Origin: Desulfobacterales bacterium
Lineage (GTDB): Bacteria > Desulfobacterota > Desulfobacteria > Desulfobacterales > Desulfosalsimonadaceae
Direction: 5' to 3'
NCBI GenBank assembly: GCA_034520365.1
Contig: JAXHNP010000007.1
Location: 186,001 to 250,000, forward strand
Length of the DNA stretch: 64,000 nt
The stretch's first letter is position 1; the number at the start of each line of letters is the position of its first letter. The notes beneath the pieces are model-generated. The model was given only the letters and a program-made list of their open reading frames with translations, did not search any database and had not been told where the DNA came from. Both the position numbers and the translations under genes were made by a program. Below are positions 22,447 through 56,833 of the stretch, in pieces.

Positions 22447-22526
22447 TTCAGTGTTCAGTGTTCAGTGTTCAGTGCTAAGGATTCACCCAATACCCAATAC
22501 CTAATACCTAATACCTAATACCTAAC
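22447..22526. repeat. Two adjacent heptamer arrays
   Basis: First, about four copies of TTCAGTG (22447-22473). Then about six copies of CCTAATA/CCCAATA (22485-22526). The second is the same 7-mer family as at 13773 and 54847; the first is a different 7-mer. Each shows strict 7-bp periodicity. Confidence 0.75.
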
Positions 22527-22596
22527 ATAAAAACCTATTGAAAACTATTATTCTGAAATGATATGAAATTATAATCAATTTGGCAAGGACAACTGA

Positions 22597-22748
22597 CACG
22601 GTAAATTTGTTCTATCTATTTTTCAGGCGGGCACGGTGGCCCGCCCTACGCGACAATGCCGACATTTTGTAGGGTCGGCCACCGTGCCGACCGCACATGC
22701 GAGAAACCCCATGGTTATGGGGTTGTTCGCCAGAACAAATTCACCGTG
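22597..22748 (+). mobile_element. Small non-autonomous transposon-like element, copy A (152 bp)
   Basis: Left end CACGGTAAATTTGTTCT and right end AGAACAAATTCACCGTG are inverted repeats, 16 of 17 matching. The flanks GGACAACTGA (22587-22596) and GGAGAACTGA (22749-22758) are a near-perfect 10-bp direct repeat, as expected for a target duplication. Inside are two palindromic blocks (gggcacggtggccc and cggccaccgtgccg cores) and an AACCCCAT/ATGGGGTT hairpin. There is no reading frame of note. Confidence 0.85.
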
Positions 22749-22810
22749 GGAGAACTGACCATTTCAAGACCTGAACGCATTTCGGATCACCGGCATTGAT
22801 ACGGGCGGGC

Positions 22811-26215: not shown

Positions 26216-26320
26216 GCGCGGTAAATTTGTTCTATCTAATTTTCAGGCGGGCACGGTGGCCCGCCCTACGAATGGGGAAAAATCCGATCCATCGTAGGGT
26301 CGGCCACCGTGCCGACCTTA
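26216..26320 (+). mobile_element. Small transposon-like element, degenerate copy B
   Basis: The left end (cGCGGTAAATTTGTTCT) and both palindromic blocks match copy A, but the right terminal repeat is missing. The sequence after it (TTATATGCCTGATTTCATTA) is shared with the flank of copy D at 32390, so B and D are a subgroup or derive from one larger element. Confidence 0.7.
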
Positions 26321-26356
26321 TATGCCTGATTTCATTAACCTTACACCTTATCTTCT

Positions 26357-26465
26357 GATTCATACTCGTACGCGTACTCGTGCTCATAATCGGCTTTTAA
26401 TTTTTTTGAATACGAGTACGAGTACGAGAATCGTCCCGCTTGCGCGGAACTGAGTACGATAATTT
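26357..26465. repeat. Dispersed repeat, long copy (ACTCGT/ACGAGT family)
   Basis: ACTCGTACGCGTACTCGT near the left and TACGAGTACGAGTACGAG near 26411-26428 form long imperfect inverted repeats. They are followed by a CCGC-TTG-GCGG hairpin and ACTGAGTACGAT. A shorter version lies at 12946-13000. Confidence 0.7.
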
Positions 26466-27432: not shown

Positions 27433-27468
27433 CAACCGCGGCATAGCATGTTTTCACCCCCATGATGC

Positions 27469-27592
27469 CACGGTGAATTTGTTCTGGCGAACAACCCCAT
27501 AACCATGGGGTTGTTCGCATGTAAGGTCGGCATTGTCGCGTAGGGCGGGCCACCGTGCCCGCCTGAAAAATAAATAGAACAAATTTACCGTG
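27469..27592 (-). mobile_element. Small non-autonomous transposon-like element, copy C (124 bp)
   Basis: CACGGTGAATTTGTTCT and AGAACAAATTTACCGTG are 17-bp inverted ends with one mismatch. The element is flanked on both sides by the identical 10-mer CCCATGATGC (27459-27468 and 27593-27602), a perfect target duplication, so this copy inserted recently. It is inverted relative to copy A and shorter inside. Confidence 0.9.
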
Positions 27593-27668
27593 CCCATGAT
27601 GCTTATTCTATTTACAATCTGGTAAAATTTAGATAAGAAATGGCGTTTTATAGTAAGGAGATATAAAG

Positions 27669-32290: not shown

Positions 32291-32390
32291 CAGGGTAAAT
32301 TTGTTTTATCTATTTTTCAGGCGGGCACGGTGGCCCGCCCTACGCGACAATGCCGACATTTTGTAGGGTCGGCCACCGTGCCGACCTTAC
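32291..32390 (+). mobile_element. Small transposon-like element, degenerate copy D
   Basis: The left end CAGGGTAAATTTGTTTT and both palindromic blocks match copy A; the right terminal repeat is missing. Its right flank (ACATGCTTGATTTCACTGAC) matches that of copy B and supplies an ATG in frame with tetR. It sits between the promoter/operator and the tetR coding region. Confidence 0.75.
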
Positions 32391-32480
32391 ATGCTTGATT
32401 TCACTGACCTTACACCTTATACCCGATACCTTAAACCGTCAAGTTACCTGGAAAGCCGCCGCACCCGGAAGGCCAAACTA

Positions 32481-56508: not shown

Positions 56509-56833
56509 TGATGCGGTTATCCCCTAACCCTATAGCCTTTCCGCACGGTAAATTTGTTCTGTCTTTTTTTAGGCAGGCACGGTGGCCTGCCCTACGGCGA
56601 CATGCGTCGTAGAGTCGGCCACCGTGCCGACTATCTGGCCGTTAACAGGACCGTGGTTATGGGCTTTGCGGTTAGAACAAATTAGCCGTGAGCCTTTTCC
56701 GGGTGACTGTTGTATTTTCTGAAATTTTATGCCAAAACCGGCATGATACATTTTGAATTAATCCATGGCTTAAGTATGACAATAGATTGAATTAATTTCA
56801 TCAAATAATCAACCCGGAAATACCGGATTTAAT
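56509..56833. other. Divergent intergenic region between lnt and rfbD
   Basis: 325 bp. It holds element copy E (56544-56690) with flanking duplications, then about 140 bp of AT-rich sequence that should carry the rfbD promoter. The best candidate there, TTGAAT-16-TATGAC near 56752, is weak. A small CCGG-aaata-CCGG hairpin lies just before rfbD. Confidence 0.6.
56544..56690 (+). mobile_element. Small non-autonomous transposon-like element, copy E (147 bp)
   Basis: CACGGTAAATTTGTTCT and AGAACAAATTAGCCGTG are inverted ends (15 of 17). Left flank AGCCTTTCCG (56534-56543) and right flank AGCCTTTTCCG differ by one inserted T, so they look like a 10-bp target duplication. Internal blocks resemble copy A with drift. 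Confidence 0.8.

Follow-up and report, generated by a model that had tools for sequence, protein, structure and literature searches.

Miniature elements with ISAs1-type ends carry REP doublets, probably as passengers, in a Desulfobacterales genome

To which mobile family does a short element belong when it has inverted ends and a target duplication, and what moves it? This question is raised by a 64,000-nucleotide stretch of the Desulfobacterales bacterium assembly GCA_034520365.1 (contig JAXHNP010000007.1, positions 186,001 to 250,000; this whole stretch is hereafter called the window), in which an initial annotation described a non-autonomous transposon-like element (copy A) with 17-bp inverted ends and a 10-bp flanking duplication, of a family that it could not name with certainty. 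We propose, with a probability of about 0.9, that copy A and its relatives are miniature inverted-repeat transposable elements (MITEs) moved in trans by a DDE transposase of the ISAs1 family, with a REPIN, i.e. a doublet of repetitive extragenic palindromes (REPs), as a passenger. This is a real ISAs1-type MITE family: the kind of element is known, and its cargo and its parent are unusual. Judged by sequence comparison, the family can be named after all, because larger elements have like ends, 10-bp repeats and ISAs1-type transposase sequence.

The 17-bp end (CACGGTAAATTTGTTCT) has eight matches with at most three mismatches in the window, versus 0.14 expected, and none of 100 shuffles reached eight. 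The matches start at 22597 (+) and 22732 (-), 26217 (+), 27469 (+) and 27576 (-), 32291 (+), and 56544 (+) and 56674 (-). The pairs delimit three two-ended copies, the flanks of which are alike at 9/10 bases (copy A), 10/10 (copy 27469) and 8/10 (copy 56544); the initial annotation had also placed the ends at 27469-27592 and 56544-56690 and duplications at three copies. The initial count of five copies in 64 kb is correct for these three, whereas the two "degenerate copies" at 26216 and 32291 are, judging by their surroundings, relics of a composite repeat called type B, which is described below. No match to DDE_Tnp_1, Y1_Tnp or an ISAs1 relative was found in the window (C7:186001-250000), other transposase families not having been searched, and the earlier claim that it holds no transposase stands for these kinds.

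The search of the whole 4.33-Mb genome with the 17-mer, which had been suggested as a check, returned 280 matches with at most two mismatches, versus one for the reversed pattern used as a control. Reading covered the listed places with an exact match, one more place and the copies of the window itself, i.e. 44 distinct two-ended copies and 54 one-ended rows (a double-counted L090 row was dropped); copies with at least one perfect end are favoured by this choice, so that the 44 do not sample the 280 ends at random. They are 124-217 bp long, and the 19 copies of 152 bp have a mean identity of 96%. When ten flanking bases were compared, all ten were alike in 24 copies, nine in 10, eight in two and fewer in eight, so that 36/44 copies have at least 8/10 bases alike. 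Among the eight low-scoring copies, the flanks repeat exactly over 9 bp in four and over 11 bp in one, leaving L079, L090 and L111 without an exact flanking repeat (L090 is alike at 8/9). By comparison, the left flank of one copy and the right flank of another were alike at 8/10 or more in only 2/1892 pairings, which is not the outcome of random flanking 10-mers. The mean flank identity is 0.85 at a width of 10 and 0.22-0.42 at all other widths from 4 to 15, and no base is strongly preferred within the 34 duplications that have 9 or 10 matches. Hence the copies have the features of MITEs: they are short, bounded by terminal inverted repeats, devoid of a transposase gene, dispersed in many copies and flanked by target site duplications (36/44, and five more exact at 9 or 11 bp). 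At one copy (L019) a flank resembled a tRNA T-arm; ARAGORN predicted no tRNA with or without the element, and a tRNA disruption was rejected.

Sites that fit the element-free state occur in a genus mate. Both flanks of copy A lie on one contig of the genome G021 (G021:C141), where the aligned blocks are 61 bases apart versus 223 in the window; since 61 is what remains of the 223 once the 152-bp element and a single 10-bp duplication are subtracted, the G021 site lacks the element. The joined flanks of the window are identical to G021 at 174/217 aligned positions, and the alignment scores 275 without the element versus 245 with the element kept. The same insertion is thus not shared by all relatives. 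At the site of copy 56544, the gap is 65 in G021:C242 versus 220 in the window (63 expected), with more diverged flanks.

Turning to the candidate parents, two relatives of the candidate transposase occur in the genome of the window: a close one in the locus L063 and another at 39% identity. The C-terminal open reading frames (ORFs) of L063 and of L134, a relative from another genome, score 148.6 and 148.9 bits with the ISAs1 model NF033564 (cut-off 70), and six N-terminal ORF pieces score 36.5-58.4, under the cut-off. The C-terminal scan covered these two loci; the C-terminal parts of L137, L138, L143 and L148 are 51-72% identical to that of L063. A MITE-type right end, AGAACAAATTAGCCGTG, starts 14 bases past the stop codon of the L063 transposase; copy 56544 of the window has this right end too (CACGGCTAATTTGTTCT).

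One scan of genome contigs yielded 33 transposase relatives, nine of them with both ends inside the fetched DNA; these ends have 0-5 mismatches to the MITE 17-mer. The right end of one (L140) lies at a contig edge, leaving eight elements with readable ends and flanks, five of which have exact 10-bp repeats: L134 of Methylococcaceae (1.9 kb; end mismatches 1 and 0), L137 of Gammaproteobacteria (1.9 kb; 3 and 3), L138 of Lysobacterales (1.9 kb), L143 of Nitrospira (1.9 kb; 4 and 1) and L148 of Desulfobacterales (1.5 kb, internally deleted; 2 and 1). ISAs1 elements duplicate 8-10 bp of their target, and this agrees with the exact 10 bp of these five. Copies with an intervening transposase had been named as a further check; elements of 1.5-1.9 kb with like ends, exact 10-bp repeats and ISAs1-type transposase sequence occur in metagenome-assembled genomes that belong to at least four groups (Methylococcaceae, Lysobacterales, Nitrospira, Desulfobacterales). 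In G025, a genome of the same family as that of the window, four copies of the end are found at the edges of contigs, where the sequence reads as the C-terminus of such a transposase, as expected of a multicopy insertion sequence (IS) that breaks an assembly. In a plasmid collection, the L134 C-terminal part matched 821 records, all below 60% identity. Excerpts of PMC3281130 mention ISAs1 among the IS families of Paracoccus.

Several observations weigh against an ISAs1-type origin or weaken its tests. First, no intact parent was seen in the genome of the window, where the only close relative is the decayed L063, a relic without a left end and with an in-frame TAA in its DruA-like part. Second, MITE and IS are alike at their ends only; past the 17 bp the likeness reaches at most 10/18, which is too weak to claim homology. 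Third, the ends of L138 have 4 and 5 mismatches to the 17-mer, and L131, L139 (both 1.9 kb) and L150 (1.0 kb, internally deleted) have no 10-bp repeat. Fourth, the target decamer at the empty site of copy A has diverged in G021, so that the junction cannot be read base by base; copy 27469 yielded no empty-site test, as synteny is broken; and G022, another genus mate, is longer at the 56544 site (521 versus 287), which means that it carries something else there. Fifth, the low counts of the end at one mismatch or fewer in three genus mates (0, 1 and 0, versus 179 in the genome of the window) may come partly from repeats lost in assembly, since these genomes are drafts of 270-650 contigs.

The parent group has a peculiar transposase gene. 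In the five relatives scanned (L134, L137, L138, L139 and L143), a DruA domain (PF14236) is followed by DDE_Tnp_1_assoc (PF13808) in one open frame, and the rest of the transposase lies in the -1 frame, a part scanned against libraries in L134 and L063 only. On the ISAs1 model, which has 314 positions, the boundary between the two parts falls near position 115. The heptamer A AAA AAG stands at the junction in 18/18 cases, namely L063 and the 17 loci whose match begins within the first six query residues; in the other 16 of the 33 relatives the match starts later or lacks the stretch (L148 has a deletion at this point, and L142 and L145 were not looked at for the site). The -1 frame continues into the transposase in 13 printed rows; the junctions of L135 and L141 were inspected by eye, the start of L130 and L133 is too near the site for the upstream frame to be read, L132 is disturbed just downstream and L160 is an unrelated match. 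The run of L141 has six A instead of seven and still spells A AAA AAG. As A AAA AAG acts as a frameshift motif elsewhere, we take programmed -1 frameshifting by the ribosome as the natural reading of the split, and transcript slippage may be the alternative. The L063 transposase had been regarded as broken by a frameshift; this idea was dropped, since its relatives have the same split, and the in-frame stop of its DruA part remains. ISAs1 elements have one ORF. From the split we claim the parent, on transposase similarity, as a divergent ISAs1 subgroup, and not as a typical member. The DruA-transposase fusion with its conserved A AAA AAG is carried by L063:392-2196 and by L131, L134, L137, L138, L139 and L143. 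DruA is a domain of the Druantia anti-phage system; PADLOC assigned no model to the three DruA-bearing ORFs scanned (P0003, P0004 and P0006). A structure model of the N-terminal part had a mean pLDDT (predicted local distance difference test) of 49.8 and was not used.

The interior of the MITE is a REP doublet, a feature absent from the initial annotation. All 44 two-ended copies hold at least one REP and 39 exactly two, the number ranging from 1 to 4, and 43/44 have a third hairpin. In copy A the REPs form an inverted pair with their GTAG ends facing inward, i.e. two inverted GTAG-headed palindromes with a spacer, as in REPINs and bacterial interspersed mosaic elements (BIMEs). Such repeats are also defined by a REP-associated tyrosine transposase (RAYT) gene flanked by like REPs, and the genome has one: among its six Y1_Tnp genes (five over the Pfam cut-off), that of L034 is a 155-aa ORF surrounded by five REPs, of which one matches a MITE REP exactly and the other four differ at 1-3 positions. 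A second RAYT, in L035, has its own REP family (GTAGGGCGGATAAGCG and the like; nine copies in the 3.3-kb locus), and the Y1_Tnp gene of L036 is flanked on either side by CGTTCCCACGC...GCGTGGGAACG hairpins.

In the copies that we read, REPIN and MITE go together as one unit. Among the first 30 of 235 REP matches, 12 loci lie in two-ended MITEs, 12 beside one end and six have no end within 250 bp, two of the latter resembling truncated members by eye; and the nine window REPs of the two MITE kinds are all inside the five elements. Because most of the REP loci lie within MITEs or beside a MITE end, and because all those of the window are in elements, the REPs and the MITE have spread together in what was examined. 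A separate entry of REP pairs into many pre-existing palindromic MITEs, which is one possible reading of an Anabaena case, would have a precedent in the REP dimers found within palindromes (PMC3733652) and a possible source in the RAYT of L034 with its like REPs. We consider it very improbable: the REP pair has the same place in the aligned copies, deletions such as that of copy 27469 apart; none of the 44 two-ended copies is free of REPs; the 19 copies of 152 bp average 96% identity; and one ancestral insertion followed by joint spread is simpler.

The distribution of the ends bears on which enzyme moves the unit. With at most one mismatch, the end occurs in 9/36 genomes of the family, including that of the window (58 times in G028 and 71 in G034), in 19/395 genomes of a phylum sample, again including it (117 times in G384), and in 17/21 genomes holding transposase relatives, with at most 15 ends each. 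The 19 distinct two-ended copies of G028 and G034 all hold a REP-like stretch; 14 have at least 9/10 flanking bases alike, and three of the other five (L058, L177 and L179) have an exact 9-bp repeat by eye. In G384, from another family of the phylum, we observed a family of 104-bp MITEs that have the same ends and lack REPs: the copies are 103-105 bp long with no REP by eye, and all nine two-ended ones (among ten places fetched) have at least 9/10 flanking bases alike. G030 has two REP-free copies of 293 and 300 bp (L048 and L059), with flanks alike at 9/10 and 10/10. MITEs of differing make-up thus bear these ends in several genera and in at least two families of the phylum of the window. It follows from these REP-free MITEs that the same ends serve different MITE families and that REPs are dispensable for movement. 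It is worth comparing this with a transposition of the whole unit by the RAYT, a Y1 tyrosine transposase, as a long REPIN of which the 17-bp ends are merely conserved flanks. The REP doublet interior, the RAYT gene with like REPs and the variation in REP number would suit such a mechanism; it has little chance of being right, given the REP-free MITEs of G384 and G030 with like ends and duplications, and given that larger DDE elements have these ends in common.

The stems of the element could also speak for a role in the host. The predicted RNA fold of copy A is very stable (-81 kcal/mol, z -7.7). In an alignment of 47 copies, i.e. 40 of our 44 two-ended copies (124 or 145-159 bp) and seven from G028 and G034, the four helices pair in 93.8% of cells. 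Changes on both sides of a pair occur in 71 cells (counting sequences, not events), versus 25.9 with shuffled partners (0/500 as high) and at most 19 with slid partners; nine pairs have a change on both sides, which is not above the shuffles (133/500). Mismatches in the third hairpin occur in some copies, copy A among them, in which two versions of its arms are combined. Rfam at the gathering threshold gave no match in the window, L114, L022 or L063. The stable fold and the paired changes would be expected of repeats kept as terminators, for mRNA stability or as gyrase sites, and not as mobile DNA; the target duplications, the empty site and the near absence of the end from the genus mates make this the least probable of the explanations considered here, and leave room for a later use by the host.

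The one-ended rows led to the type B repeat, which begins with TATTCCCCCCGGGCCGTGCGCCCGGGACCGAGC, holds the left MITE end and a REP pair, and ends with AAGTTACTTAGAAG. The 54 rows have the left context TTAAAGGCACTGAGG in 35 cases, only the right end AAGTTACTTAGAAG in five and neither in 14. Of 30 readable left flanks, 23 end in CTTAGAAG with at most two mismatches; the base preceding type B is G in 27/30, the right end of another type B stands directly before 7/30 copies, and the 25 readable right flanks have no strong common sequence. Type B (L114, L098, L002 and others) has a conserved left hairpin end, is inserted after CTTRGAAG and is also found in head-to-tail tandem; the better copies, compared with the relics at 26217 and 32291, follow CTTRGAAG. 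In a variant (L022, L024 and window ~26350-26460), the right part consists of CGTACT-like units that form a long imperfect palindrome, with GTCCCGCTCGCGCGGGACTGAGTACGA after it. Type B looks like the product of target-specific insertion without duplication. IS200/IS605, characterised by such insertion and by a subterminal hairpin, was considered as a candidate kind for type B in view of the hairpin beside its left end and of its flanks. No type B end was found in the six Y1_Tnp loci of the genome, and a link to one of these genes was dropped.

The features of the window are collected in Table 1. Copy A stands between two ORFs that we take, by eye, to be pyrF-like and selA-like. Beside it, at window ~22450-22525, are runs of seven-base units (TTCAGTG, ACCTAAT and similar), which also occur inside type B and have many matches in G021 and G022. 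At 32391-32460, the longest reading of an ORF that is TetR-like by eye begins within a type B relic; this start may be too early, or may be supplied by the repeat.

Table 1. Positions of the MITE copies and related repeats in the window.
Feature	Positions	Strand	Remarks
Left 10-bp target duplication, copy A	22587..22596	.	GGACAACTGA
Left 17-bp terminal inverted repeat, copy A	22597..22613	+	exact CACGGTAAATTTGTTCT
Copy A	22597..22748	+	152-bp MITE, between presumed pyrF-like and selA-like ORFs
REP 1 of inverted pair, copy A	22626..22649	-	GTAG end inward
REP 2 of inverted pair, copy A	22669..22692	+	
Third hairpin, copy A	22699..22730	+	adjoins right end
Right 17-bp terminal inverted repeat, copy A	22732..22748	-	1 mismatch
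Right 10-bp target duplication, copy A	22749..22758	.	GGAGAACTGA
One-ended relic	26217..26317	+	left MITE end and REP pair, part of type B-like composite repeat
Left target duplication, second copy	27459..27468	.	CCCATGATGC
Second copy	27469..27592	-	124 bp; a single REP remains (27540-27563); third hairpin at 27487-27518
Right target duplication, second copy	27593..27602	.	CCCATGATGC
One-ended relic	32291..32386	+	left MITE end and REP pair, part of type B-like composite repeat
Left target duplication, third copy	56534..56543	.	AGCCTTTCCG
Third copy	56544..56690	+	147 bp, REPs 56572-56595 and 56609-56632
Right target duplication, third copy	56691..56700	.	AGCCTTTTCC

We propose the following mechanism for the spread of the ISAs1-type MITEs. 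The 17-bp ends would be the binding and cleavage sites of the transposase, which would act in trans and cut the target in a staggered manner, the repair of the cut giving the 10-bp duplication. In the parent group, this enzyme would be a DruA-transposase fusion made by -1 frameshifting at the A AAA AAG within the transposase. Since the REP doublet, which resembles the REPs around a RAYT gene of the genome, lies between the ends, DDE transposition would spread the REPINs as passengers. In a more tentative extension, which we hold to be possible and somewhat less likely to be true than false, the DruA-fused ISAs1 transposase spreads the element, the RAYT alters the number of REPs inside it, and type B is a captured half that moves by a third, target-specific mechanism.

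These elements can be compared with several known systems. They resemble the ISAs1 family (NF033564; DDE_Tnp_1) in transposase family, inverted ends and 10-bp duplication, and the parent subgroup differs by its in-frame N-terminal DruA domain and conserved A AAA AAG split. They share inverted GTAG palindromes and a REP-flanked RAYT with the REPINs and BIMEs, as defined, together with the RAYTs, in the excerpts of PMC3116915 and PMC2817692, whereas here the palindromes belong to a DDE-type MITE that is flanked by 10-bp duplications, and 24 of the 30 REP loci examined are no further than 250 bp from a MITE end. The closest precedent that we found in print is Anabaena variabilis, where REP dimers (GTAG-15) lie regularly within long palindromes, called targets in the portion of PMC3733652 consulted; its section 7 gives neither target duplications nor a transposase for the palindromes, both of which were found here. 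The MITE in hupL of Ca. Thiomargarita nelsonii likewise has 10-bp direct repeats and inverted repeats (19 bp); according to excerpts of PMC4853749 it has no ISfinder parent, and the authors lean to a PD-(D/E)XK (Yhg-A) origin, so that a kinship, compared by description, is a lead only. BrickBuilt of Porphyromonas gingivalis (PMC4596501, in part) is also a MITE with a second kind of repeat as cargo, and differs by its IS5-like ends and by its cargo, a tandem repeat (minisatellite). Among the literature matches listed, seen in part and covering few subscription journals, none describes a DruA-ISAs1 fusion, an ISAs1 MITE with REPs or a frameshift in ISAs1.

The spread of REPs is described as poorly understood in the accessible part of PMC8266576. 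In our data, 24 of the 30 examined REP loci adjoin a MITE end, and the transposition of this element is open to assay with ordinary DDE tools, which allows a direct test of one route of REP spread. In the parent group, DruA is tied to a transposase through a conserved putative frameshift site. If the tentative reading with both a DDE transposase and a RAYT is true, the REPINs of this lineage would have spread mainly as passengers of a DDE transposon.
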